From the NCBI GenBank assembly GCA_003221695.1, contig QHSX01000075.1, positions 1 through 32,969 of the forward strand: a stretch of 32,969 nucleotides of DNA, given 5' to 3'. Position numbers and translations under genes: made by a program. This stretch comes from Candidatus Rokuibacteriota bacterium (GTDB lineage Bacteria; Methylomirabilota; Methylomirabilia; Rokubacteriales; CSP1-6). Below, in pieces: positions 3,801 to 24,211 of the stretch (position 1 is its first letter; each line of letters starts with the position of its first letter). The notes under the pieces are model-generated. The model was not told the origin of the DNA and searched no databases. It saw nothing but the letters and a program-made list of their open reading frames with translations.

Positions 3801-3876
3801 TGGTGGAGGGTAAGGGATTCGAACCCTCGACCTCGGCGTTGCGAACGCCGCGCTCTCCCAACTGAGCTAACCCCCC
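3801..3876 (-). tRNA. tRNA-Ala (anticodon CGC)
   Basis: A complete cloverleaf can be drawn on the minus strand. The acceptor GGGGGGT pairs with ACCCTCC (one G-U), the D arm is GCTC-AGTTGGGA-GAGC, the anticodon stem CGGCG/CGCCG encloses TTCGCAA with anticodon CGC, and the T arm is GAGGG-TTCGAAT-CCCTT. The discriminator A is followed by an encoded CCA. It reads GCG alanine codons. The gene follows the slipin stop codon by 27 bases, with a TAGAAT -10-like hexamer (complement of 3896-3901) in between, so it may have its own promoter. Its 3' end faces the decayed segment, the usual side for tRNA-targeted integration. Confidence 0.95.
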
Positions 3877-3903: not shown

Positions 3904-4710
3904 TTACGCCCTCGGCGCGTCTCCCCCCTTGTTGAAGGCCTGGAGCAGCGGGCCGAAGAGATCCAGCGGCAGCGGGAAGAATGTCGTCGTGGACCGCTCG
4001 GACGCGATCTCCCGCATGGTCTGCAGATACCGGAGCTGGACGGCGATCGGATGCCGCGTGAGGACCTCGGCCGCCTCGGAGAGCTTCGCCGCCGCCTGGA
4101 ACTCGCCGTCCGCGTTGATGACCTTGGCCCGCCGCTCGCGCTCGGCCTCCGCCTGCTTCGCCATCGCGCGCTGCATGTCTTGCGGCAGATCGATCTGCTT
4201 GACCTCCACGGTCGCGACCTTGATGCCCCAGGGCTCGGTGTGCTCGTCGATGATCCGCTGGAGCTGCTGGTTGATCTTGTCACGCGCCGAGAGGAGGTCG
4301 TCGAGCTCGACCTGGCCGAGGACGCTCCGGAGCGTCGTCTGCGCGATCTGCGAGGTCGCGTAGAGATAGTCCTGCACCGCGATCACCGCCCGCTCCGGGT
4401 CCACGACGCGGAAGTAGATGACCGCGCTGACCTTGAGCGAGACGTTGTCGCGTGTGATCACGTCCTGGGGCGCGACGTCGAGGGCGACGGTCTGGAGGCT
4501 CACTTTGACCATCCGGTCGATGAGCGGCACGAGCAGGACGAGTCCCGGGCCGTTCCCCTGCCCGCCGGGGTTGAGGATCGCCCGCGTGCTGCGCCCGAGC
4601 CGGAAGATGACGGCCCGCTCGTACTCGCGGAGGATCTTCGCGAACGAGCCGATGAAGAAGATGACCGCAAAGACCACCACGAGGATCAGCAGCGAATCGA
4701 CCGAGATCAT
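3904..4710 (-). CDS. Slipin / stomatin-like SPFH membrane protein
   Basis: Membrane-anchored SPFH (band 7) protein of 268 residues that oligomerises in the cytoplasmic membrane and organises membrane domains or partners. One N-terminal membrane segment (about residues 6-24) is followed by [44 protein letters not shown] in the band 7 core, and the coiled [23 protein letters not shown] helix, all typical of slipins. The start ATG overlaps the nfeD stop (ATGA) and is preceded by GGAGGAG at a good distance, so the two are translationally coupled. NfeD and slipin (stomatin operon partner pairs such as PH1510/PH1511) form a known functional pair in which the protease cleaves the slipin C-terminus. 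The last gene of the long minus-strand operon before the tRNA. Confidence 0.93.
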
Positions 4711-6008
4711 GGGGCTCCTCCCTTCGTGTCGGCCTTGGCGACTCTCAGCGTGAGCCCGTCCACCGCGACCACCCGCACGCGTGCGCCGGCGTCGACCGGC
4801 TCCCCCTCGGCCACCGCGCGCCAGATCTCTCCGGAGACCAGCACCTGCCCCTCCGGCGCCAGGCGCTCCTTGACCGTCGCCAGCTGCCCCACGAGGCCGC
4901 TCGGCCCCAGGAGCTGGCGGCGCGCGAGGGCCCGCACCCCGGCGGCGATGACGAAGAGAAAGAGCCCGGCCGTCGCGCCCACCATGGGCACGATCGCCCA
5001 CCACGACACCCGCAGCCCGATCTCGGGAGCGTCGAACAGCATCAGCGAGCCGAGCGCCATGGAGACGATGCCGCCGATCGCGAGGATCCCGTGGCTCACG
5101 ATCTTGATCTCGGCGACCAGCAGCACGATCCCGAACAGGATCAGGAGGAGCCCCGCGTAGTTGATCGGCAGGCTCTGGAAGGCGAAGAACGCGAGGATCA
5201 GCGAGATCCCGCCGATGACCCCGGGCAGGATCGCGCCCGGGTTGGAGAGCTCGAAGAAGAGGCCGAGCATCCCGAGCATCATCAGCACGTACGCGACGTT
5301 CGGGTCGGTGATGACGTTGAGGACCCGGTCGCGGAAGCCGATCTCGATCGGCGTCACCGGAGCGCCCCGCGTCTGGAGCGTCACGGTCCCTCGCGTGGTC
5401 TTGACCGTGCGTCCGTCGACCTTCTCCAGGAGATCCGTCGTCGAGTCGGCGATGAGATCGACGACCCGGAGGCGCACCGCCTCGCGCTCGGTGATCGAGA
5501 CCGCCTGGCGGACCGCCTTCTCGGCCCAGTCGGCGTTGCGCCCGCGCTCGAGCGCGACGGTCCGGATGAACGCCGCGGCGTCGTTCTCGATCTTCTTCAG
5601 CATCGTCTTGTCGGTATTCCCCCCACCGAGCATGACCGGGGACGCCGCGCCGATGTTGGTCGCCGGCGCCATCGCGGCGATGTGGGCGGCCAGCGTGATG
5701 AAGACACCGGCGGAGGCGGCCCGGGCGCCGGTGGGCGCGACGAAGATGATCACGGGCACCTCGGCGTTCAACATCCGCTGGACGATCGCCCGCATGGACC
5801 GCTCGAGCCCGCCCGGGGTGTCGAGCTGGATGATGAGCGCCTGGGCGCGCTCGCTCTGCGCGCGGTCGATCGCGAGTCCGACCAGGCGCAGCGTGACGGG
5901 GCTGATCACGCCCTCGATGTCGATCTTCGCCACGGGCGCTGGCGCAGCGCCGGCCGCCCCGGGCCCGAGCAGCGCCGCGAGCGCCAAGAGCGGGAGCCCG
6001 GCCCTCAT
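4707..6008 (-). CDS. nfeD: NfeD-like membrane-bound ClpP-class serine protease
   Basis: Long-form NfeD (433 residues), the protease partner of slipins. A signal peptide (about residues 1-22) precedes a ClpP/SppA-like domain with [15 protein letters not shown] (oxyanion region) and the nucleophile Ser99 in [14 protein letters not shown]; Lys138 or Lys139 in the [12 protein letters not shown] stretch is the probable catalytic base. Four to five membrane segments follow (about 230-345), then a C-terminal OB-fold NfeD domain ([19 protein letters not shown] to the end). Its start overlaps the stop of the ureohydrolase gene by ATGA and its stop overlaps the slipin start in the same way. The family is well characterised in archaea; the cellular target here is unknown beyond the neighbouring slipin. 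Confidence 0.93.
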
Positions 6009-6943
6009 TTGCCCAGCGCCAGGAGGCTCACGACCTCGAACATGAGATTCGCCGCGAGCAGGGACGTGATCTGGCCGGGGCCGTCGTAGAGCGGCGAGAC
6101 CTCCACGATGTCGGCCCCGACGAGGGCCTGCCCGGCGAGCGCGCGCACGAGCGTGAGCGCCTCGTACGAGGTGAGCCCGCCGACCTCGGGCGTGCCGGTG
6201 GCGGGTGCGTAGGCGGGGTCTACCGCGTCGATGTCGAAGGAGCAGTAGACCGGTCCGCCCCGGAGCCGGCCGAACCGCTCGCCCACCCAGGCGACCCCCT
6301 GCTCCTTCACCACCTCGATGCGGACCACCTCGATCCCGTGCCGCTCGTGGAACGCGAAGTCGTCGGCGCCGTAGAGGGGGCCGCGGATGCCCACCTGGAT
6401 CATGCGGCGCGGGTCCACGAGCCGCTCCTCGACGGCCCGACGGAACGGCGTCCCGTGGAAGAACTTGGAGCCGAAGTACTCGTCCCAGGTGTCCGGATGC
6501 GCGTCGAAGTGGACGAGACCGACGGGCCCGTGCCGGCGCGCGAGCGCTCGCAGGATCGGCAGCGTGATGGAGTGGTCGCCGCCAACCATCACGGGCACCG
6601 CGCCGTGGGCGAGAATCTCGTCCACGCGCCGCTCGATCGCCGCGTACGTGCGCTCGATCGAGATCGGCACCACGTCGACATCGCCGCAGTCGGCGACCCG
6701 CAGCCGCTCGAACGGATGGACCTTCAACACGGGGTGCCACGGCCGGATGAGCGACGACTGCTCGCGCACAGCGCGCGGGCCGAACCGCGCGCCCGTCCGG
6801 TACGACACGCCGCCGTCGTACGGGATCCCGACGAGCGCGACGTCGAGCCGCTCGGCGGTGGCCACGGCGGGCAGGAGCATGAACGTCGCCACTTGACCAA
6901 ACCGGGGAGACACGAAGGCATCGCGCGGCTCCGGGTGACTCAC
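6005..6943 (-). CDS. speB: Agmatinase-family ureohydrolase
   Basis: Binuclear-manganese hydrolase that releases urea from a guanidino compound, most likely agmatine to putrescine. All metal-binding signatures are present: VMVGGDHS (His124), HFDAHPD (Asp147, His149, Asp151) and [14 protein letters not shown] (Asp237, Asp239), with the agmatinase-like [13 protein letters not shown] near the C-terminus. About 312 residues, normal for the family. A GTG start is chosen because the upstream frame is the antisense-like tail of sufS and because GGAGG lies just ahead of it, 17 bases after the sufS stop. Substrate cannot be fixed by sequence alone; guanidinobutyrate or guanidine hydrolases share these motifs. 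It sits between sufS and nfeD in one overlapping operon. Confidence 0.88.
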
Positions 6944-6959: not shown

Positions 6960-8177
6960 CTAGAGCGCCGTCCGCAACTCGGCGACGACGGCGAGGAGGC
7001 GCCCGACCTCGTCGGGCGAGTTGAAGACCGAGAAGCTCGCGCGCGAGGTCCCGACGACCCCGAGCCGTCGCATGAGCGGCATCGCGCAGTGATGGCCGGC
7101 CCGCACCGCGATCCCCTCGGCGTCGAGCAGCGCGGCCACGTCGTGGGGATGGAGCCCCGCCACCGTGAAGGCAACCACCGCTCCCCGGTCCGTGCGCGCG
7201 GGCGGCCCGTAGACGTTCACCCCCGGGACGGCCGCCAGCCCCTCGAGCGCCTGTCGGGTCAGCGCTCGCTCGTGCTCGAGGACGCGCTCCATCCCCAGCT
7301 TCTCGAGGTACTCGATCGCGGCGGTGAGTCCGACCGCTTCGGCGATCGGCGGGGTTCCGGGCTCGAAGCGCCACGGCAGGTCGTTCCATTGAGCCCGGTC
7401 GATCCAGACCTCCTTGATCATCTCGCTTCCGCCGCGTCCGGGCTCCAGGGACTCGAGAACTTCGCGGCGTCCGTAGAGGACACCGATCCCGGTCGGGCCG
7501 AGCATCTTGTGGGCTGAGAACACGTAAAAGTCACAGCCGAGCAGGGATATATCGAGTGGAAGATGAGGCGCGGCTTGAGCTCCATCGACGACCGTGAACG
7601 CCCCGACCTGTCGGGCGCGAGCGCTCATCTCCGCGACGGGGTTGATCGTGCCGAGGACGTTCGAGACGTGCGCGAACGCGACGACGCGCGTGCGCCGGGT
7701 CAGGAGGCGCTCGAACGCCTCGAGGTCGAGCGTGCCGTCATCCCTGAGGGGAACGGCCTTTAGCACGGCGCCCCGGTCCCGCGTCGCCAGTTGCCACGGA
7801 ATGATGTTCGAGTGGTGTTCGAGCTCTGTGATGAGCACCTCGTCGCCCGCCCGCAGGGTGCGACCGAGCGTCTCGGCCAGGAGGCTCAGACCGTCGGTCG
7901 TCCCGCGTGTGAAGACGACCTCCTCGCGGCTCCCGGCGCCGATGAACCGCTGGACCCGGTCGCGGGCAGCCTCGTAGAGCTCGGTGGCCTCCTCGCCGAG
8001 CGTGTGGATCGAGCGGTGGACGTTGGCGTGGCTCCGCGCGTAGTACTGGCCCATCGCCTCGATCACCGTCCGCGGCCTCTGGCTCGACGCGGCCGAGTCG
8101 AGGTAGACGAGGGGGTGGCCGTTGACGACCCGCTCGAGGATCGGGAAGTCCGGGCGCGTCCGCTCGTCGAGTCTCAT
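6960..8177 (-). CDS. sufS: SufS-type cysteine desulfurase
   Basis: PLP-dependent desulfurase (405 residues) that takes sulfur from cysteine as a persulfide. Seen are LDSAASSQRP near the N-terminus, the PLP-stacking His in TELEHHSN (H121), FTVVDGAQAAPH (Asp198), the Schiff-base lysine in FSAHKMLGP (K224), and the catalytic Cys in VRAGHHCAMP (C364), the SufS/type II layout. Its ATG overlaps the stop of sufU. No sufB, sufC or sufD genes are nearby. Because xdhC and molybdenum-enzyme genes lie just upstream in the same operon, I infer that this desulfurase may sulfurate the molybdenum cofactor, as NifS4 does with XdhC in Rhodobacter capsulatus, in addition to or instead of Fe-S assembly. Confidence 0.92.
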   Translation of the reverse strand: MRLDERTRPDFPILERVVNGHPLVYLDSAASSQRPRTVIEAMGQYYARSHANVHRSIHTLGEEATELYEAARDRVQRFIGAGSREEVVFTRGTTDGLSLLAETLGRTLRAGDEVLITELEHHSNIIPWQLATRDRGAVLKAVPLRDDGTLDLEAFERLLTRRTRVVAFAHVSNVLGTINPVAEMSARARQVGAFTVVDGAQAAPHLPLDISLLGCDFYVFSAHKMLGPTGIGVLYGRREVLESLEPGRGGSEMIKEVWIDRAQWNDLPWRFEPGTPPIAEAVGLTAAIEYLEKLGMERVLEHERALTRQALEGLAAVPGVNVYGPPARTDRGAVVAFTVAGLHPHDVAALLDAEGIAVRAGHHCAMPLMRRLGVVGTSRASFSVFNSPDEVGRLLAVVAELRTAL

Positions 8178-8602
8178 CGCTTGCCCTTCAACGCCGCGGC
8201 GAGCACCGAGAGGGGGAGGGTCACGCAGCGCATCCGCGTCGGGCGGATGTCGGCCTGGAGCACCGCGAGCACGTCCGCGGCGTCCACCGTCAGGGCCTCG
8301 ACGCGCGACCGTCCGACGACGAGCTCGGCGACCACGTCGGCCGACGCCGTGCAGATCGCGCACGAGTCGCCCACGAACCGGGCCCCGGCGACGCGATCGT
8401 CCGCGAGCGCCAGCATCAACCGTACGCGATCGCCGCAGAGCGGGTTGACGTCTTCGGCGACCGCGGAGGCACCCGGGAGGTCACCGCGGAAGCGGGGACG
8501 CCGCCACCGCTCACGGATGACGTCGCTATAGAGGAGGGGGCCTCGACGGCTGGTGCTCGAACCAGGGCCGCTCACGGCTCTGGCCATCACCTCGTCCGTC
8601 AT
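8174..8602 (-). CDS. sufU: SufU-like sulfur acceptor / Fe-S scaffold
   Basis: Small zinc-containing sulfur-transfer protein (142 residues) that accepts persulfide sulfur from SufS. The three conserved cysteines are in NPLCGDRV (C56, followed by Asp58), GDSCAICTASAD (C81, with an additional C84) and TRMRCVTLPL (C126). The first 20 residues are not conserved-looking, so an internal ATG (residue 6) is possible. The chosen ATG overlaps the stop of the upstream molybdopterin-binding gene (ATGA), and its own stop overlaps sufS, a typical SufU-SufS coupling. Confidence 0.88.
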   Translation of the reverse strand: MTDEVMARAVSGPGSSTSRRGPLLYSDVIRERWRRPRFRGDLPGASAVAEDVNPLCGDRVRLMLALADDRVAGARFVGDSCAICTASADVVAELVVGRSRVEALTVDAADVLAVLQADIRPTRMRCVTLPLSVLAAALKGKR

Positions 8603-9639
8603 TGGAGCTCCCCCCGCGCCGCGTTCGCCCGATAGGGCGGGAAACGGTAGCTCACGTCGCGCGAGAGCAGGCCGCCGTGTCCGAGCTCGGCGATCGTCCG
8701 GTTGTCCACGTGCTCGCCGGCGAGGACTCGGGGCAGGACCAGGTCAAACGTCGTCGCCTGGGAAAACATCCCGCACGTCGGCATCCCGAGCACGGGCCGG
8801 CCCTCCCATATGGCCAGCCACAGGAGGCTACCGGGATGGGCCGGCGCGCCGTGGCGCTCCATGCGAGCGCCCAGCAGCGTGAGCCCGCCGAACACGGGGT
8901 CGAGTGGATCGAGCGCACTCGCCCCAGCGACGATCAGGACCTCGGCGCCCGCCCGTTGGAGCGCCGTGAGCTCGTCGGCGATCACGCGGGGCGCGCCTCC
9001 CGCGAACCGCACGGGCAGGAGGCGACTGCCGAACCATTCGGCCTTCTGCTGGAGCGCCGTCTCGAAGCGCGCACGTTGCGTGGCGTCGAGGCGCTCCTGG
9101 GCGACGGCGCCGAGCGTCGCCGGACGGAAGCCGCGCACGGTGACGAGCCCGCCCGCGCCGCGCGCCGTCGTCTCGACGGTGCGGATCGTGTTCTCGCCGA
9201 TGACGAGCGGCGTCACCTTGCACTTGGCGACGGTCTCGCCCGACTCCACCGGCTGCCCATCGAACAGGGTGAACACCGACACCCCCTCGAGCGCGTTCGC
9301 GTCCGCCAGCGGACCGCGACGGATCGTGAGGAGCCCGCGGCGCGTCGCCGCGAGCGTCCATTGCCCGCCGCCGTAGCCCTTCACCGTGACGCCATCGCCG
9401 ACGGCCGCTGCCGCGAGCCGCCGGCCGGCCTCTTCCTCGTGGAGGTCGCCGGGCTCCATGGCGAGGAGGTGGATTTCGTCCCAGGGGGTCGCGAGCAGCG
9501 TCGCGGCGGTCTTCGCCGTGAGGCGCGCGCCCTTCTCGACGGCGACCTTGCCGGCCCCGTCGCGCACGTCGTGACAGAGCACGCGGTCGACGAGGGTCTC
9601 GGGCGTCGCCGTCTCCCGTCGCTGCGCGATCGCCTTCAT
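8599..9639 (-). CDS. Molybdopterin-binding (MoaB/MoeA-like domain) protein
   Basis: A 346-residue protein of the molybdopterin-binding superfamily found next to CO dehydrogenase or xanthine dehydrogenase maturation genes. The N-terminal part resembles a MoeA/glp leader (LVDRVLCHDVRDGAGKVAVEKGARL and EPGDLHEEEAGRRLA), and the C-terminal half has the molybdopterin-binding fold features IVAGASALDPLDPVFGGL, AHPGSLLWLAIWEGRPVLGMPTCGM. It lacks the plain GGTS-type motif of housekeeping MogA/MoeA in this reading, so a specialised role in handling or inserting Moco for the hydroxylase is inferred. It overlaps xdhC upstream and sufU downstream by ATGA, so it is expressed with them. Confidence 0.75.
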   Translation of the reverse strand: MKAIAQRRETATPETLVDRVLCHDVRDGAGKVAVEKGARLTAKTAATLLATPWDEIHLLAMEPGDLHEEEAGRRLAAAAVGDGVTVKGYGGGQWTLAATRRGLLTIRRGPLADANALEGVSVFTLFDGQPVESGETVAKCKVTPLVIGENTIRTVETTARGAGGLVTVRGFRPATLGAVAQERLDATQRARFETALQQKAEWFGSRLLPVRFAGGAPRVIADELTALQRAGAEVLIVAGASALDPLDPVFGGLTLLGARMERHGAPAHPGSLLWLAIWEGRPVLGMPTCGMFSQATTFDLVLPRVLAGEHVDNRTIAELGHGGLLSRDVSYRFPPYRANAARGELQ

Positions 9640-10715
9640 GCCGTTCGGGGCCCGGCCGAGAGCGGCTGGCCCGTGCCGCCGCCGCGCGCGGCCTGGATCT
9701 CGGCCAGGATCGCGAGGGCGATCTCGGGCGCCGAGCGCGCCCCCAGGTCGAGGCCGATCGGAACGCGGATCCGCTTGAGCTGGGCGTCGCTCACGCCGTC
9801 CTCCCTGAGGAACGTGAGGATCGCGGCGCCCCGGCGGGACGACCCGAGCATCCCGATATAGCCCACGTCGGTTCCGAGCGCTCGGCGCAGCACGGGCAGG
9901 TCGTACTTGTAGTCGTGGGCGACGAGGACGAGCGCGGTCGACGCGATCAGCGGATACTCGGCGACGAGCTCCGACGGAATGCCGACGCGCAGCTCGTCCA
10001 CGTCGGGGAATCGCTCGCGCGTCGCGAACCGCGGGCGGCCGTCGAGCACCACGGTCCAGTAACCCAGCACCTTGGCGAGGGTGACGAGCGGCATCGCCAC
10101 GTGGCTCGCGCCGATGACGAGGAGGCGCGCGGGCGGCGCCACGACCTCCACGAACGCGCGCGTCCCCTCCAGAAACAGCGTCCGCGAGGCGCCCGTCGCC
10201 ATCGCCTCGCGCGCCTCACGGGCGAACCGCTCGTCGAGAAAGGCGTCCCCCAGCGTGCCCTCGACGGCGCCGTCGTCCAGCACGAGGAGCTTCCGGCCGA
10301 CCTCGCCGTCGAGCCGCGTCACGATGGCGGCGGTGTGACCGGCCGCGGCGTGCCGGCGCGCGCGCGCGTAGAGCCGCGCGGCCGCGTCGTCCGCGCGGTC
10401 GAGCGCGAGGGGCTCAACGAACACCTCGATCGTGCCGCCGCACGTGAGACCGATCTCCCACGCCTCCTCGTCGCCCAGGTTGAGCTCGAGGAGCCGGGGC
10501 CGCATCGTCGCGAGGACGTCCTCGGACTCCTGGAGAACCTGGGCGTCCACGCAGCCACCGATCGTCACGGAGCCCAGGATCGCTCCGCCTTCGCCCACGA
10601 CCATCTTGGCGCCTTCCTTGCGCGGCGTCGTGCCACGGGTATTCACGAGCGTGGCGACGGCCACTTTGCGGGAGGAGCCGCGCAATTCGTCGAGGTGATC
10701 GAAGAGCTCGCTCAT
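9636..10715 (-). CDS. xdhC: XdhC/CoxF-family Moco-binding maturation factor
   Basis: XdhC-family protein (359 residues) that binds molybdenum cofactor, assists its sulfuration and hands it to a xanthine-oxidase-family apoenzyme. The N-terminal XdhC/CoxI domain has VNTRGTTPRKEGAKMVV, GSVTIGGCVDAQV with its Cys, and LTCGGTIEVFVEP. The second, Rossmann-like domain begins at PARLLVIGASHVAMPLVTLAKVLGYWTVVLDGRPRF and contains YIGMLGSSRR and VPIGLDLGARSAPEIALAILAEI. It lies 43 bases after the coxE gene and overlaps the next gene. In cox clusters its counterpart is named CoxF. Sulfuration partners probably are the sufSU products encoded two genes later. Confidence 0.92.
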   Translation of the reverse strand: MSELFDHLDELRGSSRKVAVATLVNTRGTTPRKEGAKMVVGEGGAILGSVTIGGCVDAQVLQESEDVLATMRPRLLELNLGDEEAWEIGLTCGGTIEVFVEPLALDRADDAAARLYARARRHAAAGHTAAIVTRLDGEVGRKLLVLDDGAVEGTLGDAFLDERFAREAREAMATGASRTLFLEGTRAFVEVVAPPARLLVIGASHVAMPLVTLAKVLGYWTVVLDGRPRFATRERFPDVDELRVGIPSELVAEYPLIASTALVLVAHDYKYDLPVLRRALGTDVGYIGMLGSSRRGAAILTFLREDGVSDAQLKRIRVPIGLDLGARSAPEIALAILAEIQAARGGGTGQPLSAGPRTA

Positions 10716-10758: not shown

Positions 10759-11904
10759 CTACAGGGTCAGCTTGCTCGCCAGATCCCTGAGCGCGGCGAG
10801 GCTGTGGCCGGGAGCGAAGACGTCGACGAGCGGCAGCGCCGCCGCCATCCCGCGCGTCAGCGGCTCGTAGGACGGGTTGCCGAGGAGCGGGTTGAGCCAG
10901 ATGACGCGGCCGGCGCGGCGTTTGATGCGGAGGAGCTCCCCGGCCAGGAGCTCGGGCTCGCCCGTGTCCCAGCCGTCGGACAGGACGATCACGATCGTGC
11001 GCCGGTCCACGAGTCGCGACCATTCCCGGTTGACCTGGGCGAGCGACTCGCCGATTTTCGTCCCGCCCGACCAGTCGCGCACCTCGGTGAGCCGACGGAG
11101 GACTTGCCGGTAGGAGCGCCCGCGCAGATGGTCGGTGATACGTGTGAGGCGCGTCGAGAAGGTGAACGTCTCGACCCGGCCGAAGACGTTCTGGAGCGCG
11201 AAGAGAAACTGGAGCAGGAAGCGGCTGTACAGGTCCATCGAGCCGGACACGTCGCAGAGCAGGACGAGCCGGACCTTCTTGCGCTTCCGCTCGCGGTAGC
11301 GCAGCTCGATCAGGTCCCCGCGCGTGAGGTTGGCCCGGAGCGTCCGCCGGAGGTCGACGCGCCCGCGCCGCCTCACGGGCCGTCGACGGCGCGTGAGGCG
11401 ATGCGCGAGCCTCCGCGCGATCTTGATCGTAAGCCGGAGGATCTCGTCGAGCTGGTCGGCGCCGAAGGTCGAAAAGTCCTGGCCGACGAGCGCCTCGCTG
11501 TCGGACGCCGCCGGCACGCTGAGCGGCTCGCCCGTGTCCCCTGCCTCCTGCCCCTCGCCCCACGTCTCCAGCGCGAGGCCCTCGCGCTTCTGGCTCGACG
11601 ACTCGAGGAGCGCGTCACTCTCCCGGCCGTCGGCGGGTGGGGCCTGGGTCAGTCCCGGAATCCCCTCCGCGGCCGACTCGGCCCGCCAGAAGGCGTCGAA
11701 GCAACGGTCGAAGGCCGGGACCTCCTCGGGGCGACCCACGAAGATCGCCTTGAAGGCGAGGTAGAGCTCGCCGCGGTCGCCGATGTCGAGGTGATCGAGC
11801 GCACGCACGGCGTCCGTCGTGTGGATCAGGGTGACCGGGAGGCCGTGCTGGCGGAGCAGCGTCGCGAACCGCGCGACGGCCGTCGGCAGCTCGCGCGGGC
11901 GCAC
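10759..11904 (-). CDS. coxE: CoxE-type von Willebrand factor A protein
   Basis: VWA-domain protein (381 residues) that works with the MoxR ATPase CoxD to build the [CuSMoO2]-type site of CO dehydrogenase in Oligotropha; in form II clusters the exact remodelling step is unknown. A helical N-terminal region with the FVGRPEEVPAFDRCFDAFW motif is followed by a very basic linker (TRRRRPVRRRGR, near 171-182) and the VWA domain. The MIDAS residues are visible: DVSGSM (D218, S220, S222), the Thr in WSGGTKIGESL, and the Asp in LSDGWDTGEP. A GTG start is used, located one base beyond the coxD stop region; the two genes are coupled. Confidence 0.92.
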   Translation of the reverse strand: MRPRELPTAVARFATLLRQHGLPVTLIHTTDAVRALDHLDIGDRGELYLAFKAIFVGRPEEVPAFDRCFDAFWRAESAAEGIPGLTQAPPADGRESDALLESSSQKREGLALETWGEGQEAGDTGEPLSVPAASDSEALVGQDFSTFGADQLDEILRLTIKIARRLAHRLTRRRRPVRRRGRVDLRRTLRANLTRGDLIELRYRERKRKKVRLVLLCDVSGSMDLYSRFLLQFLFALQNVFGRVETFTFSTRLTRITDHLRGRSYRQVLRRLTEVRDWSGGTKIGESLAQVNREWSRLVDRRTIVIVLSDGWDTGEPELLAGELLRIKRRAGRVIWLNPLLGNPSYEPLTRGMAAALPLVDVFAPGHSLAALRDLASKLTL

Positions 11905-11905
11905 G

Positions 11906-12808
11906 TCAGGTCCGGGCGGGGATGAAGGACCCGAGCCCGGCCTTGGCGACCTCCGCGCGGAACCGCTTCATGTCGTCGGCATCTTTGAGCAGGCAGCCGA
12001 GCGTCTCGGTGAGGACGGGCTCGTCGAGATGGTCGGCGTGGAGCGCGGCGAGCGCCTGGGCCCAGTCGAGCGTCTCCGCAACCCCGGGCACCTTCGCGAG
12101 GCGCACCTGGCGTAGCGTCTCCATGAACTTCGCGATCTCGCGCGACAGGCGGGCGTTGATCCCGGGCACCTTGCGCGCGATGATCCGCGTCTCCTTCTCC
12201 GCCGACGGGTAGTCGATCCACAGGTAGAGACAGCGCCGCCGGAGCGCGTCCGACAGCTCGCGCGTCCGGTTCGAGGTCAGGATCACGTGGGGCGGATGCG
12301 TGGCCTTGATCGTGCCGATCTCGGGGATCGTCACCTGCCAGTCCGAGAACACCTCGAGCATGAACGCCTCGAACTCTTCGTCACTCCGGTCGCATTCGTC
12401 CACGAGCAGCACCGGCGACTGCGACTCCTGCGTGATCGCCTGGAGCAGCGGGCGCCGCAGCAGGAAGGGCTCGGAAAAGATCTCGTGCTCCTTCTCGTCC
12501 ATCGGGCGGCTGTTGTGCCCGGCCTCCTCGAGCTTGATGTGCAGGAGCTGCTTCTGATAGTTCCACTCGTAGAGGGCGGTCGAGGCGTCGAGCCCCTCGT
12601 AGCACTGGAGCCGGATCAGGTTCGTCCCGAGCATCCGCGCCACGACCTTCGCGACCTCGGTCTTCCCGACGCCCGCGGGCCCCTCGATCAGGAGCGGCTT
12701 GCGCAGGCGCATCGCCAGGTGCACCGACGTCGCAATGGGCGCGTCCGTCACATAGTCGGCCGCCTCCATCAGCTCCTGGAGTTTTCGAATCTCGTCACGC
12801 ATGTCCAT
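11906..12808 (-). CDS. coxD: CoxD-type MoxR AAA+ ATPase
   Basis: MoxR-family AAA+ ATPase (300 residues), the chaperone partner of CoxE in maturation of molybdenum hydroxylases. Walker A is GPAGVGKT (43-50); Walker B is LLVDECDRSD (Asp137, Glu138); sensor 1 is ILTSNRTRELSDALRRRCLYLWIDYPS, which includes the arginine-finger region. LQCYEGLDASTALYEWNYQKQLL is the distinctive CoxD insert I associate with this subfamily. The ATG directly follows the TGA of the nucleotidyltransferase gene (TGAATG), so the two are coupled. Confidence 0.95.
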   Translation of the reverse strand: MDMRDEIRKLQELMEAADYVTDAPIATSVHLAMRLRKPLLIEGPAGVGKTEVAKVVARMLGTNLIRLQCYEGLDASTALYEWNYQKQLLHIKLEEAGHNSRPMDEKEHEIFSEPFLLRRPLLQAITQESQSPVLLVDECDRSDEEFEAFMLEVFSDWQVTIPEIGTIKATHPPHVILTSNRTRELSDALRRRCLYLWIDYPSAEKETRIIARKVPGINARLSREIAKFMETLRQVRLAKVPGVAETLDWAQALAALHADHLDEPVLTETLGCLLKDADDMKRFRAEVAKAGLGSFIPART

Positions 12809-13393
12809 TCATTGTACATGAAGCCTCGCGTAGTCCTCGGGCGTGTCCACGTCGAGGGGCATCGGGAGGTCGAAGGCGACGCGCTCGACGCGCTCGACGC
12901 GCTGCGGCCGCGCGTTCACGACGGAGCGCGCCCCGGCGTCGCCGGTGAGCTGGGAGAGCTCCGGGAAGACCTCTCGCGCGAAGACGACGGGCGTCCCCTG
13001 CGTCCCCTGGAAGACCGGCACGACGATCGGCTTTCCCCCGCGGCCGAAGGCGGCGAGCAGCGCCGGCACGACCGGGTCGGGCGTCTTCGGCTGATCGCCG
13101 AGCGCGATCAGCGTGGCACGCGTCCACGGCTTGAGCGCCGCGATGCCGACGGCGATCGAGCTCCCCTGGCCCTCCTGGGGCCGCGGGTTCACGGCGAAGC
13201 GCACCCCGAGCCCGGTCAGCGCGTCGCGGACCGCGGAGTCGTCCTGGCCCGTGACGACGACAACGTCCTCGACGTGTGGCAGCAGACGTTCGACGGCCCA
13301 GCGGACGACCGGCTTGCCCTCGAGCTGAAGGAGGAGCTTCTGCCGCCCCATGCGGCGGGCGAATCCGGCGGCCAGCACGATGCCCGCGATCAT
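12809..13393 (-). CDS. MobA/MocA-like molybdopterin nucleotidyltransferase
   Basis: NTP transferase-3 family protein (194 residues), most like MocA, which joins CMP to molybdopterin to make the cytosine dinucleotide cofactor used by xanthine-oxidase-family enzymes. The N-terminal signature IVLAAGFARRMGRQKLLL (5-22) binds the nucleotide and phosphate, VVVTGQDDSAV and NPRPQEGQGSSIAVGI follow, LIALGDQPKT carries the metal-binding Asp, and FDLPMPLDVDTPEDYARL is the usual C-terminal motif. The start ATG is placed at MIAGIVLAAG; longer upstream frame is low-complexity. It is separated from coxM by about 190 bases holding a strong palindrome. Confidence 0.88.
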   Translation of the reverse strand: MIAGIVLAAGFARRMGRQKLLLQLEGKPVVRWAVERLLPHVEDVVVVTGQDDSAVRDALTGLGVRFAVNPRPQEGQGSSIAVGIAALKPWTRATLIALGDQPKTPDPVVPALLAAFGRGGKPIVVPVFQGTQGTPVVFAREVFPELSQLTGDAGARSVVNARPQRVERVERVAFDLPMPLDVDTPEDYARLHVQ

Positions 13394-13500
13394 GCGCGAA
13401 GCGGTGAAGCGCGCCGGCGGAGTCGGCGGGCCGGGGGAGCGTTCGGCCGGGGGTGGACGAGACCCGTTCCGGCCGCGTCGCATGCGGACCTAACGCACCC

Positions 13501-13587: not shown

Positions 13588-14457
13588 CTACGCGCCGGCC
13601 CGCTTCACGGCCTCCGTGATCGCGCGTTTCGCGAAGACGCGGCAGAGGTGCGACTTGTACTCGACCGAGCCTTGCAGGTCCGCCTGGACGTCGACGCCGT
13701 CCGCGGCCTTCTGCGCGGCGGCCTCGATCGCCGCCGGGTCGAGTCGCTTGCCGACCAACGCGGCCTCGACGCCCTTGGCGCGCACCGCCTTCGTGCCCGC
13801 GCCGGTGACGCCGACCCCGGCCTTGGTGCAGACGCCCTGCTTGTCGAGCGTCACCGCCGCGCAGACGCCGACGACGGCGAAGCGCGACGCGGGATGGGGA
13901 AACTTCATGTAGGCGGCGCCCGAGCCCGCCGGGAGCAGCGGCACGCGGACCTGGGCGAGCAGCTCTCGCTCCTTGAGCGCCGTCGCCATGAGCCCGAGGA
14001 ACCATTGGTCCACCCCGACCTTGCGCTTGCCCTTCGGCCCCTCGCAGACCATCTCGGCGCCGAGCGCGATCATCGCCGCCGGCCAGTCGGCGGCGGGGTC
14101 GGCGTGAGCCAGCGAGCCACCGATCGTCCCCTTGTTCCGCACCGCGGGGTCACCGATGACGCTCGCGACCTCCGCGAGCACCGGGAGCTTCGACTTCACC
14201 GCGGACGACGACTCGATCTCCCAGTGGGTCGTCATGGCGCCGATCGCGAGCGCCTTGCCGTCCGCCTTGATGCCCGAAAGCCCCGGCACCTTCCCGAGGT
14301 CGATCAGGTGCTTCGGCTGGGCGAGCCGGAGCTTCATCATCGGGATCAGGCTGTGGCCGCCCGCCAGGATCTTGGCGTCGTCCTTCAGCTTGCCGAGGAG
14401 CCCCAGCGCTTCCTTGACGTTCTTCGGCGCGTGGTAGTCGAACGCTGCGGGATACAT
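13588..14457 (-). CDS. coxM: CO dehydrogenase-like FAD subunit (medium)
   Basis: FAD-binding subunit (289 residues) of a molybdenum hydroxylase, passing electrons from the Fe-S subunit to FAD and on to an acceptor. The PCMH-type FAD motifs are AGGHSLIP (32-39) and TIGGSLAHADPAADWP (111-126). The C-terminal half (PAGSGAAYMKFPHPASRFAVVGVCAAV onward) is the CO_deh_flav_C domain. The start ATG has AGGAGG six bases upstream, which overlaps the coxL stop codon. Subunit order S-L-M matches form II clusters. Cytoplasmic or membrane-peripheral enzyme; no signal sequence. Confidence 0.95.
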   Translation of the reverse strand: MYPAAFDYHAPKNVKEALGLLGKLKDDAKILAGGHSLIPMMKLRLAQPKHLIDLGKVPGLSGIKADGKALAIGAMTTHWEIESSSAVKSKLPVLAEVASVIGDPAVRNKGTIGGSLAHADPAADWPAAMIALGAEMVCEGPKGKRKVGVDQWFLGLMATALKERELLAQVRVPLLPAGSGAAYMKFPHPASRFAVVGVCAAVTLDKQGVCTKAGVGVTGAGTKAVRAKGVEAALVGKRLDPAAIEAAAQKAADGVDVQADLQGSVEYKSHLCRVFAKRAITEAVKRAGA

Positions 14458-14466
14458 GCGCGCCTC

Positions 14467-16866
14467 CTATCGCTTGGCCTTGGCGGCCTGGATCGCTTTC
14501 CACACCCGCTCGGACGTCAGCGGCATCGCCTCGATGTGGTCGACGCCGAGCGGCGCCAGCGCATCGATCACGGCGTTCACCACGGTCGGCGTCGCCGCGA
14601 TGGTGCCCGTCTCGCCGGCCCCCTTGATGCCCATGGGATTCACGGGCGTCGGTGTGACGGTGCGGTCGGTCTCGTACAGCGGCAGCATGTCAGCCTTGGG
14701 CAGCGCGTAGTCCATCATGCTGCCCGTCACGAGCTGGCCGGAGCCCTCGTCGTACACGGCTCCCTCGCAGAGGGCCTGCCCCACACCCTGGGCGATGCCG
14801 CCGTGCACCATCCCGTCGACGATCATGGGGTTGATGACCTTGCCGACGTCGTCGACGGCGAGGTAGCGCTGGATCTGCACCGCGCCCGTGTCCCGGTCCA
14901 CCTCGACCACGCAGGCATGAGCCCCGAACGGGAAACAGAAGTTCGACGGGTCGTAGAAGCTCGTCTCCTCGAGGCCGGGCTCGAGGTTGTCGGGGTACTT
15001 GTGGGGAACGTACGCGGTGAGCGAGACGGCGCCGAACGGCACGGCCTTGCTCGGCACGCCCTTGACCTGGAACTGGCCGTTGACGTACTCGATGTCGTTC
15101 GCCGACGCCTCGAGCAGGTGCGCGGCGATCCTCTTGCCCTTCTCCTTGATCTTGTTCAGCGACATTAAGATGGCGGTGCCACCGACCGAAGCGGAGCGGC
15201 TCCCGTACGTCCCCATGCCGAAGGGAATTGCGCCGGTGTCGCCGTGGACGATCTCGACCTGCTCGATGGGGATCTGGAGCTCGTCGGCGACGAGCTGGGC
15301 GAACGTCGTCTCGTGCCCCTGACCGTGTGAGTGGGAGCCGGTGTAGACCGTGACCCCTCCGGTCGGGTGCACGCGGACCTTGGCCGACTCGTAGAGGCCG
15401 GCGCCGGCGCCGAGCGCGCCCACCAGCTTGGAGGGCGCGATCGAGCACGCCTCGATGTAGGTCGAGAAGCCGATGCCGAGCAGTCGGCCCTGCTTGCGGG
15501 CGGCCTCCTGCTCGGCGCGGAACTTCCGGTAGTTGAGCATCTGAAGCAGGCGGTCGAAGGCCGCGGCATAGTCGCCGCTGTCGTAGGAGACCGCGACCAG
15601 CGTCTGGAACGCCCCGGAGAACTTCGGGATGAAGTTCTTCTTCCGGAGCTCGGCCACGTCCATCCCGAGGGCACGGGCCCCGGCCTCGACGATACGCTCG
15701 AGGACGTAGCAGGCTTCGGGGCGGCCGGCGCCGCGATAGGCGTCGACCGCCGTGGTATTGGTGAAGACGCCGGTCACCTCGCAGTGGATGGCCCCGATCG
15801 TGTAGACGCCGTTGAGGAGCGTTCCGTAGAGGAACGTCGGAATCGCCGGCGCGAACGTCGACAGATAGGCGCCCAGGTTCGCCGTCGTCTTCACACGAAG
15901 CCCCAGGATCTTGCCGTCCCTGCCGAGCGCGAGCTCGGCGTCGGTGACGTGGTCGCGGCCGTGGGCGTCGGTCAGGTAGGCCTCGCGACGGGTCGCCGTC
16001 CACCGGACCGGCCGCTTGAGCTGGCGGGCCACCCAGGAGCAGACGACCTCCTCGTTGTAGAGGAAGATTTTCGAGCCGAAGCCGCCACCCACGTCGGGAG
16101 CGATCACGCGCACCTTGTGCTCGGGAATCCCGAGCACGAAGGCGCACATGAGCAGCCGGTGCACGTGCGGGTTCTGCGAGGTCACCCAGAGGGTCAGCTC
16201 GCCGGTCGCCGTGTCGAAGCGCGCGATGCAGGCCCGCGGTTCCATCGCGTTGGCGACGAGCCGCTGATTGAGGATCCGCTTCTTCACCGTCGTCGCGGCG
16301 CCCTTGAAGGCCGCGTCGGTCGCGCTACGGTCGCCGATCTCCCACTTGAAGGCGACGTTGCCGGGCGCGCCCGTGTGGATCTGCGGAGCGCCAGAACGTG
16401 CGGCCCTGTCGGTCACGGTGACCGAGGGCAAGGGCTCCCAGTCCACTTTGACCCTGTCCACCGCGTCCACGGCCGCCGCCTGACTCTCCGCGATCACCAC
16501 CGCCACCGGGTCGCCGACGTGCCGCGCCACGTCCGCCGTGAGTGGCATGTGCGGCACCATCGCGAGGTCCTGGACGACGCCGGGGATGTTCTTCTCCTTC
16601 CGGAGGTCCCATCCGCACGGCAGCGAGTTCACGCCGGCCATGTCCTTGCCGGTGAAGACCGCGACGACGCCCGGGTGCTTCAGCGCCCCACTCGTATCGA
16701 TCCTCCGGATCCGCGCGTGGGCGTGCGGGCTCCGCACGAACGCGGCGTACGTCATGCCGGGGAGCTTGACGTCGTCGACGTACTGGCCGCGACCCGTGAT
16801 GAAGCGCGGATCCTCACGGCGCTTGATCGCCTTGCCGAACAATCGTTCTTGAACGACGGTAGCCAT
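14467..16866 (-). CDS. coxL: Form II CoxL-like molybdopterin subunit
   Basis: Catalytic subunit (799 residues) of a xanthine-oxidase-family hydroxylase. Moco-binding features seen include DVGGGFGSK (258-266), [27 protein letters not shown] and the C-terminal [11 protein letters not shown] with the catalytic Glu. The active-site loop reads AYRGAGR (376-382). True CO dehydrogenases (form I) have AYRCSFR there, where the Cys holds copper; here the Cys position is Gly379. This is the form II (BMS) signature. CO oxidation by form II enzymes is disputed, so the substrate may be CO, an aldehyde, or an aromatic or purine-like compound. The ATG follows the coxS stop by nine bases. Full length for the family (about 770-810). 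Confidence 0.95.
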
Positions 16867-16875
16867 GGCGTGCCC

Positions 16876-17352
16876 TCACTTCTTTCCGGCCATGTGTTCG
16901 GCGGCCCACTGGATCGCCTTCACGATGTTGTGGTAACCCGTGCAGCGACACAGGTTGCCCTCGAGCTGGTGCCGGATCTGGTCTTCCGTCGGCTTCGGGT
17001 AGCGTTCGAGCATCTGGTAGGCGGCCAGGATCATGCCGGGCGTGCAGAAGCCGCACTGGAGGCCGTGTTTTTCCCAGAACCCCTGCTGGATCGGGTGCAA
17101 CTCGCCGTTCTTCGCGAGGCCCTCGATCGTCGTGATGGTGGCGCCGTCGGCCTGGACGGCGAACAGCGTACACGCCTTCACCGCCTGACCGTCTATGAGG
17201 ATCGTGCACGCCCCACACTGGCTCGTGTCGCAACCGACGTGCGTTCCGGTGAGCCCGACCACCTCCCGGATGTAGTGGACCAGCAGGAGGCGGGGCTCCA
17301 CCTCGTGACTGACTTTCTGGCCGTTGATCGTCATCTTCACTGGCAGTTTCAC
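16876..17352 (-). CDS. coxS: CO dehydrogenase-like [2Fe-2S] subunit (small)
   Basis: Electron-transfer subunit (158 residues) with two [2Fe-2S] clusters. The ferredoxin-type ligands are [10 protein letters not shown] (C41, C46, C49) and C61; the distal cluster uses CGFC (C100, C103) and NLCRCTGY (C135, C137). A GTG start is chosen because GGAGG (complement of 17360-17364) stands seven bases upstream and the family normally begins just before the beta-grasp strand MTINGQ; the longer open frame upstream would add non-conserved residues. First gene of the 13-gene minus-strand operon, about 50 bases downstream of a candidate promoter. Confidence 0.95.
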
Positions 17353-17410
17353 GACTGTTCCTCCGGGATCCGGACGGTTTGCGCGCAGACCTTGTTGGCT
17401 CGCGGTGCAG

Positions 17411-17439
17411 AGACTAAGACTTCCCCCCCAGGCTGTCAA
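17411..17439 (-). promoter_or_regulatory. Candidate sigma-70 promoter of the cox operon
   Basis: On the minus strand a perfect -35 box TTGACA (complement of 17434-17439) is followed 17 bases later by TAGTCT (complement of 17411-17416), which keeps the T1, A2 and T6 of the -10 consensus. Transcription would start near 17404, leaving a leader of roughly 50 bases before coxS. A run of seven G lies in the spacer. The -10 match is only moderate. Confidence 0.5.
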
Positions 17440-17532
17440 CGACCGATCGTCTCGAGCAGAGCAGGGCGTGGCAGGCCAATCGGCCAACTGGGGAAGGCTT
17501 GGCAACGGGGCGCGAGGTCGGCGTCGCGCCAG

Positions 17533-22035: not shown

Positions 22036-22066
22036 GCCGGGAGATCGACTCGGGATCGCTCAGTCG
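22029..22066. terminator. Bidirectional inverted repeat holding both stop codons
   Basis: CGACTGAGC (22029-22037) and GCTCAGTCG (22058-22066) form a perfect 9-bp stem over 20 bases. The TGA of the pentapeptide gene is in the left arm and the TGA of larC, on the other strand, is in the right arm. There is no T run, so termination strength is uncertain; the position between convergent operons suggests it serves both. Confidence 0.55.
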
Positions 22067-23244
22067 TGGAGGAGTCGGCGACCGTCGGCGCGCGCCTGGT
22101 CCAGGACCTCGCGCACCGGCAGGGTCTTCTCGCGCGCGATGCGCGCGACGTCGGCGAACTCCGGCGTCACGGTGACGACGCGGTCGCCGAGGCGCGACAC
22201 CTTGAAGGCAATCGCGCCGTACGCGGTCGTGAGCGTGACGATCTCACGCGCGAGTCGGCTCCGCCGCCACTCCGACCACCGGACACCGATCGTGCTCGTC
22301 TCCTCGAAGAGCGCACGCGTGAGGTCGTCGATCCGTTCCGGCGCGCACAGCGACGTCACGACGACACCGGGGCGGCCCCGCTTCATGACGACGGACTGGA
22401 GGAACACGTCGAGCGCGCCCGCCTCGAAGAGACGCTCGACGAGCGGCTCGTAAAGCTGCGGTGACATGTCGTCGATCGTCGTCTCGACCTGGAGGACCGT
22501 CTCGTCGCCGCGGGCGACCTCGGCCGTGTCGCCGATGAAGCAGCGCAGCACGTTCGGAGCGCCCGGCAGGTCGCGCGTGCCCGCGCCGTAGCCGACCGCC
22601 GACACGGTCATCGACGGCATCCGCCCGGCCGACGCGGCGAGTGTCGTCAGGATCGCCGCGCCCGTCGGCGTCACCAGCTCGGCCTGCACCCCCGTGTCGA
22701 CCACCGGGAAGCCGCGGAGGAGCTCCGCGGTGCCGGGCGCCGGCACGGGGATCTTTCCGTGCGGCCCGTCGACGAACCCGCCCCCGAGCGGGAGCGCAGA
22801 GGCGTGGACCGCCTGGACCCCGAGCAACTCGAGCCCGATGATCGCGCCCGTCACATCGACGATCGCGTCCACGGCGCCGATGTCGTGGAAGTGGACCTCA
22901 TCGCGCGTCGCGCCGTGGGCGCGCGCCTCGGCGTCGGCCAGTCGCGTGAAGATCCGCGCCGCCGTCTCTCGGACCGTGGCGCCGAGCGCGCTCCGCTCGA
23001 CGATCGCCAGAACGTCGCCGAGCGTGCGGTGGCGCGGGTGCGTGCGGTGGTCGATCTCCACGTCCACCTTGGTCGCGCGGAACGTTCCCTTCCGCACCTC
23101 GCGCGCCACGAGCTCCCACCCCTCGAGGGGGAGCTTCTGGAGCTCACGCCTGAGGGCGTCGAGCGGCGCACCCGCATCGACCAGCGCGCCGAGAACCATG
23201 TCCCCCGCCGCCCCGCTCGGACAATCAAAATACGCGATCCTCAT
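22060..23244 (-). CDS. larC: LarC nickel insertion protein (nickel-pincer cofactor)
   Basis: CTP-dependent nickel insertase (394 residues), last step of nickel-pincer nucleotide (NPN) synthesis. The N-terminus MRIAYFDCPSGAAGDMVLGALVDAG is the family signature; HFHDIGAVDAIVDVTGAI follows (near 125-140), then ASALPLGGGFVDGPHGKIPVPAPGTAELLRG and ELVTPTGAAIL. The C-terminal domain, LQVETTIDDMSPQLYEPLVERLFEAGALDVFLQSVVMKRGRPGV, is the CTP-binding part; here both parts are in one frame, whereas in Lactobacillus plantarum they arise by a programmed frameshift. The ATG at MRIAYF is preferred; an earlier GTG would add seven residues. Separated from larB by about 210 bases. Confidence 0.94.
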   Translation of the reverse strand: MRIAYFDCPSGAAGDMVLGALVDAGAPLDALRRELQKLPLEGWELVAREVRKGTFRATKVDVEIDHRTHPRHRTLGDVLAIVERSALGATVRETAARIFTRLADAEARAHGATRDEVHFHDIGAVDAIVDVTGAIIGLELLGVQAVHASALPLGGGFVDGPHGKIPVPAPGTAELLRGFPVVDTGVQAELVTPTGAAILTTLAASAGRMPSMTVSAVGYGAGTRDLPGAPNVLRCFIGDTAEVARGDETVLQVETTIDDMSPQLYEPLVERLFEAGALDVFLQSVVMKRGRPGVVVTSLCAPERIDDLTRALFEETSTIGVRWSEWRRSRLAREIVTLTTAYGAIAFKVSRLGDRVVTVTPEFADVARIAREKTLPVREVLDQARADGRRLLHD

Positions 23245-23353
23245 ACGCGAGAGCTCCAACGCCACGCCAGGCCCGCGGGATCGGGAGGCCTTCCGAGAGC
23301 GGGGTTGATCCTGCCGCGGGTTGGGGCGGCCCTGCGAGACCCGTAGCTTCTGC

Positions 23354-23372
23354 GCGTTGCCGGGCGCAACGC
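23354..23372. other. Small hairpin in the larB-larC gap
   Basis: The 208-base gap between larB and larC has no gene. It holds GCGTTGC-CGGGC-GCAACGC, a 7-bp stem with a five-base loop and no T run. The gap is long compared with the overlaps elsewhere in this operon, so larC may be separately controlled. Confidence 0.35.
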
Positions 23373-23452
23373 CGACGAAACGCCCGCCCAGGGTCGGTTG
23401 CTAGCGTGGTCGAGCAGGGCCACCCCGGCCCGCGGCGGGGATAAACAACGCA

Positions 23453-24211
23453 TCACCGGATCTTCGCGACGAGGTGGTTGATCTGGCTCGCCTGATGCGC
23501 GGCGCCGTAGCCGTTGTCGATGTTCACGACCGACACGCCGGGTGCGCAGGAGTTGAGCATCGCGAGGAGCGCCGCGATGCCGCCGAAGGACGCCCCGTAC
23601 CCGACGCTCGTCGGGACCGCGATCACCGGGCGGTCGACGAGCCCGCCGATCACGCTCGGCAGGGCGCCCTCCATGCCGGCGACGGCGACGATCGCGTTGG
23701 CGTCGGCCAGGAGGTCGTAGTGCCCGAGCAGACGGTGGAGCCCGGCGACCCCGCAGTCGTAAACGCGCTCCACCCGGTTGCCGAGCGCCTCGGCCACGAG
23801 CGCCGCCTCCTCGGCGACCGGCAGGTCCGCGGTCCCCGCGGCCGCGATCACGATCAGCCCCACCGCCTCCACGCGCTCCGGCCGCACGATCACGAGCCGC
23901 GCGTCGGCGTGGTACGCGTGCGGCAAGCCCGCCGCGGTGACCGCCGCGGCCACGTCGGCGCCCGCGCGCGTGGCGATCACGTTCGGGTGATCGCGGGCGA
24001 GCCGCGCGAGGATCGCGACCACCTGCTCCGGCGTCTTCCCCGGGCAGAACACCGCCTCGGCGGCGCCGGTCCGCACCGCCCGGTGATGGTCGATCTTGGC
24101 GAACCCGAGGTCCTCGTAGGGCAGGCGCCGCAGGTGGTTCAGCGCGGTGTCCACGTCGATTCGCCCCGCGGCGAGGTCCGCGAGGAGCTTCCGGACGGCC
24201 TCCCTATCCAC
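23453..24211 (-). CDS. larB: LarB pyridinium carboxylase/hydrolase
   Basis: First enzyme of NPN synthesis (252 residues): it carboxylates C5 of the pyridinium ring of nicotinic acid adenine dinucleotide and hydrolyses the phosphoanhydride, giving P2CMN. It is related to PurE. The N-terminal LLADLAAGRIDVDTALNHLRRLPYEDLGFAKIDHHRAVRTGAAEAVFCPGKTPEQ is typical, and the C-terminal PurE-like part contains VAVAGMEGALPSVIGGLVDRPVIAVPTSVGYGASFGG and NSCAPGVSVVNIDNGYGAAHQA. The GTG start lies inside the 3' end of larE (overlap of eight bases). Confidence 0.95.
   Translation of the reverse strand: MDREAVRKLLADLAAGRIDVDTALNHLRRLPYEDLGFAKIDHHRAVRTGAAEAVFCPGKTPEQVVAILARLARDHPNVIATRAGADVAAAVTAAGLPHAYHADARLVIVRPERVEAVGLIVIAAAGTADLPVAEEAALVAEALGNRVERVYDCGVAGLHRLLGHYDLLADANAIVAVAGMEGALPSVIGGLVDRPVIAVPTSVGYGASFGGIAALLAMLNSCAPGVSVVNIDNGYGAAHQASQINHLVAKIR

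Follow-up and report, generated by a model that had tools for sequence, protein, structure and literature searches.

A short SufU-type protein accompanies XdhC and MocA in Rokubacteria and Gemmatimonadota and probably belongs to a sulfuration kit for molybdenum enzymes

Described systems and the locus

In Rhodobacter capsulatus, the cysteine desulfurase NifS4 sulfurates the molybdenum cofactor (Moco) bound to XdhC, as described in PMC2997495. Here, the genes xdhC, MBP, sufU and sufS of a Candidatus Rokuibacteriota bacterium (assembly GCA_003221695.1, contig QHSX01000075.1) were analyzed, MBP denoting a MoeA-like, putative molybdopterin-binding protein and SufU-M the product of this sufU. The whole contig (C94 of the assembly; 32,969 nucleotides) is referred to as the window. 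The locus resembles the XdhC-NifS4 system in combining an XdhC-family chaperone with a cysteine desulfurase, which there provide the sulfido ligand of a xanthine-oxidase-family enzyme. According to the part of PMC2997495 dealing with this step, NifS4 acts directly on the XdhC-bound Moco, whereas the kit described here adds a SufU-type carrier and a MoeA-like protein, and its desulfurase is of the SufS type and linked to cox genes.

Three further systems are related. FdhD/FdsC with IscS, as outlined in PMC12140954, likewise represent a dedicated go-between and a desulfurase which sulfurate a molybdenum cofactor; however, they belong to another protein family and serve formate dehydrogenases with bis-molybdopterin guanine dinucleotide, and FdhD binds the cofactor, whereas SufU-M would be a zinc-type carrier. 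The SufS-SufU pairs of Bacillus subtilis and Mycobacterium tuberculosis, in the account of PMC10216065, share the zinc-swapping His of SufS and the zinc ligands and docking residues of SufU, but serve SufBCD-dependent Fe-S assembly and have a SufU insertion of 21-23 residues; the kit lacks this insertion, and its genome gave no SufB/SufD match. Maturation of the Oligotropha CO dehydrogenase involves CoxD, CoxE and CoxF, and homologs of CoxD and CoxE adjoin coxSLM in the window as well, although the Oligotropha cluster encodes a form I copper enzyme; the sulfur source of CoxD-dependent cox-type maturation is stated as unknown in the relevant part of PMC4240915. The association of a desulfurase with XdhC is already known; searches of an open-licence library yielded no kit that also contains a carrier of the SufU type and a Cys protein resembling MoeA.

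The four genes form the end of a ten-gene run on the minus strand (coxS, coxL, coxM, mocA-like, coxD, coxE, xdhC, MBP, sufU, sufS) and occupy positions 6960-10715:

xdhC, 9636..10715, minus strand: XdhC-family Moco chaperone (PF13478, PF02625)
Overlap ATGA of xdhC and MBP, 9636..9639, minus strand
MBP, 8599..9639, minus strand: MoeA-like, with an invariant Cys289 in GMPTCG; AlphaFold2 model with pLDDT 85.9 and a gephyrin-E/Cnx1E fold (Z about 12-13)
Overlap ATGA of MBP and sufU, 8599..8602, minus strand
sufU (SufU-M), 8174..8602, minus strand: short SufU with the ligands C56, D58, C81 and C126, an extra C84, and R123 (PF01592)
Overlap ATGA of sufU and sufS, 8174..8177, minus strand
sufS, 6960..8177, minus strand: SufS-type cysteine desulfurase with K224, His343/His345/Asp346 and the catalytic C364 (TIGR01979 above cut-off)

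The first-pass annotation, made from the window alone, had proposed that xdhC, the molybdopterin-binding gene, sufU and sufS are joined into one run by ATGA overlaps, and all three junctions do read ATGA. The run is not a chance arrangement, since the identical order recurs in dozens of genomes.

Conservation of the gene set in two phyla

The Rokubacterial set consisted of 30 loci, namely the window and L052-L080. SufU is followed by SufS in 28 of these, the order XdhC-MBP-SufU is found in 27, and the full order XdhC-MBP-SufU-SufS in 25. Of the deviating loci, L068 and L070 have no SufS, the stretches of L071 and L077 contain no XdhC-MBP, and L073 lies at a contig end. The XdhC and MBP genes overlap or touch in 21/27 loci and those of SufU and SufS in 20/28, both counts being approximate, as aligned starts were used. 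A scan of named genomes yielded 45 MBP loci, 34 of them with the full order; this set shares contigs with the 30 loci and is not independent. Across 95 Methylomirabilota genomes, SufU-M was present in 53, MBP in 56 and both in 52, and in 49 of these 52 genomes the two genes are same-strand neighbors. SufU-M was counted at ≥ 133 bits plus one 120-bit fragment in genome G383, omitting six matches of 121-130 bits in family f8, and a single 21-bit MBP match (G367) was also omitted. Four of the f8 matches were inspected (L081-L084) and adjoin a SUF-type SufS-SufU pair.

At these four f8 loci, a canonical SufS-SufU pair has a second, short SufU (with CAIS and KCGLL) beside it; in L081, a PF01883 gene lies between them. 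At another locus, L121, an AFOR gene comes after xdhC-MBP-sufU-sufS.

For Gemmatimonadota, the phylum name was taken from loci L127, L129 and L132, and the other genomes are members of the phylum to which the genome of L129 belongs. MBP was detected in 25 of 298 genomes. The SufU-M profile gave 14 matches of at least 120 bits, the next best having 96 bits. Half of the 14 belong to XdhC-MBP-SufU-MocA runs (L129, L166, L167, L169-L172), the other seven to XdhC-SufU-MocA runs lacking MBP (L216-L222); MBP occurs without SufU at L127, L165 and L168. No match to coxS, coxL or coxM was obtained in the fetched stretches of the seven MBP-free runs, which ties SufU-M to cofactor maturation. The runs of both phyla show that SufU-M accompanies XdhC and MocA regardless of whether MBP, SufS or the cox structural genes are neighbors. 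The conserved core is a short SufU with XdhC and MocA, often with MBP, and SufS is a Rokubacterial addition. Conserved linkage, named as a test in the first-pass annotation, was found in two phyla, i.e., in the 49 of 52 Methylomirabilota genomes and at 14 Gemmatimonadota loci. Of the dedicated xdhC-sufU-sufS module claimed there, the linkage to xdhC held, but SufS as a conserved part had to be given up, as it is missing beside sufU in 2/30 Rokubacterial loci and was not found in the Gemmatimonadota stretches.

In L129 (11031-12032), SufU-M and a MocA-like domain are encoded together in one frame of 333 residues. This fusion was rejected as main evidence, because it is a single case, possibly caused by a frameshift, and the relatives have separate genes in different frames.

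SufS and SufU-M

The window SufS reaches 557.9 bits against TIGR01979 (cut-off 475.1), its closest solved chains are those of B. subtilis SufS, and the catalytic C364, the pyridoxal phosphate (PLP) lysine K224 and the SufU-specific His345 are present. Of the 28 cox-type SufS rows, 27 show the motifs HxHD, which contains the zinc-swapping His, and RxGHHC, which contains the catalytic Cys, L080 being cut by a contig end. Escherichia coli SufS has a Tyr at this His position and is reported, in the part of PMC10216065 concerned, to be unable to use M. tuberculosis SufU. Since the His is kept and the Tyr variant fails with SufU, the pairing of SufS and SufU-M looks functional. In the SufS tree, the cox-linked enzymes and six SUF-linked ones lie on opposite sides of a 100/100 branch, a split which was read from the drawn tree with the IscS-like row L087 (branch length about 10) set aside and the tree not rebuilt; identity of the window SufS to the six is 44-52%.

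SufU-M passes the Pfam family NifU_N (PF01592, 67.5 bits), and its AlphaFold model (pLDDT 90.8) has the IscU/SufU fold. C56, D58, C81 and C126 (a Cys, Asp, Cys, Cys zinc-ligand set) are invariant in the alignments, and Tyr25 and Arg123 are kept as well. Judged by motif spacing, these six residues correspond to those of M. tuberculosis SufU which coordinate zinc or contact SufS in the description of PMC10216065. The usual insertion of about 20 residues between the second and third Cys, described in the same source, is missing: the spacing is 42-45 in 30/30 Rokubacterial and 45 in 7/7 Gemmatimonadota sequences, versus 61-66 in 7/7 SUF-linked SufU. As the four short SufU of the f8 SUF operons also have a spacing of 45, shortness alone is not diagnostic. 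The motif CAxC, which includes the extra Cys, occurs in 27/30 Rokubacterial, 7/7 MBP-linked and 4/7 MBP-free Gemmatimonadota sequences and is absent from 7/7 SUF-linked, 4/4 f8 and 3/3 other Gemmatimonadota sequences covering the site. It was dropped as a defining signature, because 7/45 sequences lack it (3/30, 0/7, 3/7 and L223).

Desulfurases, SUF genes and XdhC in the genome

The assembly comprises 4.6 Mb in 109 contigs and is 100% complete by the figure of the tool. That this sufS might be the only desulfurase of the genome had been set out beforehand as a refuting condition, and others were found: an IscS-like enzyme (C35:97891) adjoining a NifU_N gene (C35:97387), whose product scores above the IscU cut-off and contains LPPVKIHC, a NifS-like enzyme at C35:91850, also adjoining a NifU_N gene, and another NifS-like enzyme at C15:143732. 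Among the Aminotran_5 matches scored (the window one and eight others, five weaker ones being left unscored), only the window sufS passes TIGR01979. No PF01458 (SUFBD_core) match was obtained near the locus or in the assembly, whereas 14/14 control genomes match; this negative covers SufB/SufD, SufE and SufC alone not having been searched for. The lack of SufB and SufD beside the kit noted earlier thus extends to the matches in the assembly, and for this reason a SUF role in Fe-S assembly was dropped for sufU-sufS. The presence of an IscU and an IscS-like enzyme for Fe-S work supports a separate task for the pair.

Within the family of the window's genome (36 genomes, G000-G035), SufB/SufD was detected in four (G010, G014, G021, G030), counts which come from draft genomes that can miss genes. 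SufU-M is present in 29 of the 36, including all four with SufB/SufD, and 25 of these 29 have no SufB/SufD match. G021 and G030 contain a separate SUF-linked SufU/SufS pair (L085, L088) besides the cox-linked pair (L072, L055).

In a profile search of the genome, XdhC_C had a single match, the window xdhC, and MoCoBD_1 matched at 24 places. Given this ratio, the lone XdhC may act as chaperone for many molybdenum hydroxylases.

The MoeA-like protein

Neither Pfam (E ≤ 1) nor NCBIfam (E ≤ 0.001) gave a match for MBP, and a sequence search among solved structures had no hit at E ≤ 10. Its identity rests on the fold, since the sequence search against solved chains was empty. Chains of gephyrin E, Cnx1E, MoeA and MoaB/MogA align with the AlphaFold model; for 4tk3_B, 133 residues of the model range 173-330 are matched with a Z of 12.9 and an rmsd of 2.4. 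The label of a molybdopterin-binding protein, assigned earlier, fits this predicted MoeA-type fold but has no Pfam match behind it. The first-pass annotation was right to include the protein but gave it too little weight, as it is linked as tightly as SufU.

Cys289 (GMPTCG) is invariant in 51/51 MBP homologs from both phyla, and Gly239, Asp244, Pro269, Gly270, Gly285 and Pro287 are likewise conserved in this set. MBP shares with the Mo-insertases MoeA, Cnx1E and gephyrin E the fold of residues 173-330 and the PG and GxP motifs; it differs in having about 8-17% identity to them and, apparently, Cys289 at the LPGNP position. A weak hhalign alignment with E. coli MoeA (probability 0.6, E 0.093) pairs PAHPGS with IKPGKP and GMP with GLP. 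By our own reading of the motifs, Cys289 would face the Asn of LPGNP in MoeA. The molybdate-binding residues of Cnx1E are K294, K297 and S328 (PMC13262936); in MBP, the lysines appear replaced, as judged from motifs by eye and the weak alignment.

Proposed sulfur route and alternatives

The kit probably serves the maturation of the sulfido ligand in xanthine-oxidase-family molybdenum enzymes, a reading based on sequence, predicted structures and the analogy to known systems. We infer the following chemical steps, including which protein would hold the cofactor when sulfur arrives. SufS would move the sulfur of L-cysteine onto its own catalytic Cys364. SufU-M would then dock on SufS, and His345 of SufS would replace a zinc ligand, freeing Cys56 of SufU-M for a persulfide; this transfer is supported by the conserved residues and the solved SufS-SufU pairs. 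Next, SufU-M would pass the sulfur to the molybdenum cofactor on XdhC and/or MBP, with oxo being exchanged for sulfur, as suggested by the gene linkage and by NifS4 acting on XdhC-bound Moco in the system of PMC2997495. Finally, XdhC would insert the sulfurated cofactor into CoxL with the assistance of CoxD and CoxE, MocA providing the cytidine form of the cofactor. At loci without SufS, another desulfurase would have to feed SufU-M. Sulfuration on the folded enzyme, as in the known system compared, may differ here. The earlier suggestion that SufSU serves Moco sulfuration is thus favored by the desulfurases elsewhere, the lack of SufB/SufD matches and the conserved linkage, while the sulfuration step itself is proposed by analogy. 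A more specific version, in which MBP is a Mo-insertase paralog turned sulfur-insertase, receiving the SufU-M persulfide on Cys289 and swapping oxo for sulfur before delivery to XdhC, is doubtful.

Several observations weigh against a role of the kit in Moco sulfuration. SufU-M stays under the SufU cut-off of TIGR01994 (76.6 versus 92.5 bits), and its model has a Z of 20.9 to Archaeoglobus fulgidus IscU compared to 17.4 to B. subtilis SufU (in these VIA-align structure lists, a missing family is not thereby excluded); together, this makes a role in Fe-S assembly possible. The extra Cys is not invariant, being lacking also in the distant L223. XdhC-MBP exists without SufU (L127, L165, L224). 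At L068 and L070, sufU has no neighboring SufS, and none was seen next to the 14 sufU of Gemmatimonadota, where some stretches are short, so that SufS-SufU pairing is not obligatory. At two Rokubacterial loci, L111 and L226 (the latter on a contig shared with L117), MBP without XdhC, SufU and SufS directly precedes an AFOR gene (PF01314, PF02730), which fits a general pterin-cofactor role of MBP with sulfur added solely where SufU is present.

Alternatively, SufS and SufU-M could be a private unit building the two [2Fe-2S] clusters of CoxS, which is encoded in the same run; the model of SufU-M is closest to IscU scaffolds, and a scaffold function had at one time been suggested for B. subtilis SufU, as mentioned in PMC6006206. 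However, the third Cys is preceded by R125 and not by His, the latter being a ligand of the IscU/NifU scaffolds in the description of PMC10216065. This His is absent in 37/37 sequences (R, K, T, G, Q, N or A instead) and present in the genome's own IscU, and SufU-M has no LPPVK-like motif. With an IscS/IscU pair already in the genome and seven Gemmatimonadota xdhC-sufU-mocA runs showing no CoxS/CoxL match nearby, a private Fe-S unit is unlikely.

The sulfur could also be destined for the molybdopterin dithiolene (through the MoaD thiocarboxylate) or for another thio-cofactor, e.g., the lar nickel-pincer, instead of Mo=S. Several acceptors could be fed by SufU, and the region upstream contains larB, larC and a PP-loop gene in the same orientation, with larB-larC directly before coxS in several relatives. 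But SufU adjoins XdhC, MBP and MocA, all of which act after dithiolene formation, no larB/larC match was obtained in the Gemmatimonadota runs, and L226 has larB-larC-MBP without sufU or sufS, which makes such a destination quite improbable. That the pair represents leftovers of a former SUF operon beside cox by chance would agree with the lack of SufB/SufD matches in the genome but is extremely improbable, being already contradicted by an order conserved in dozens of genomes with translational overlaps, by the fully supported branch and 44-52% identity separating cox-linked SufS from the six SUF-linked ones, and by the intact residues.

Neighboring genes

Upstream of xdhC, the run contains six genes; in the part from coxS to xdhC, the intergenic gaps are 0-104 bases:

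coxE, 10759..11904, minus strand: von Willebrand A domain protein (PF05762, 213.2 bits)
coxD-like, 11906..12808, minus strand: AAA ATPase (AAA families; MadB-like under cut-off), named by position
mocA-like, 12809..13483, minus strand: nucleotidyltransferase (PF12804; TIGR03310 with 144.9 bits, under the cut-off of 186.45)
coxM-like, 13588..14457, minus strand: FAD subunit (PF00941, PF03450)
coxL-like, 14467..16866, minus strand: molybdenum subunit with the motif AYRGAGR (PF20256, PF02738, PF01315)
coxS-like, 16876..17505, minus strand: [2Fe-2S] subunit (PF01799, PF00111, NCBIfam small-subunit families); given with TTG, the true start may be downstream

The CoxL of the window lacks AYxCSFR, which we take to be the active-site motif of form I CO dehydrogenase, and carries AYRGAGR, presumably a marker of form II. 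Among 18 CoxL sequences, one of which (L060) is a fragment without the motif, only L075 has AYRCSFR. There (L075:7098-18981), the kit adjoins this CoxL, and a second, distant XdhC-like gene is present.

On the same strand, genes for NfeD and a Band 7 protein (3904-6740) follow 3' of sufS, a position kept in most relatives, and a tRNA-Ala (CGC) is found at 3801-3876, minus strand. The larC-like, larB-like and PP-loop genes upstream of coxS occupy 22060-25706, also on this strand; in several relatives, larB-larC lie directly 5' of coxS.

Implications

The gene set names candidates for the sulfur route to the molybdenum of cox-type enzymes. If the proposed role is true, SufU would no longer be confined to Fe-S work, and wherever a short SufU adjoins xdhC and mocA, it should be annotated as probably not an Fe-S gene. 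If the sulfur-insertase version also applied, SufU-M would represent a class of Moco sulfur carrier not described before and would fill in the missing sulfur source of cox-type maturation. In soil Rokubacteria, the genes of a molybdenum enzyme are thus accompanied by a small kit for sulfur supply, one component of which is a carrier otherwise familiar from Fe-S cluster assembly; this kit probably provides the sulfur atom required for a working cofactor.

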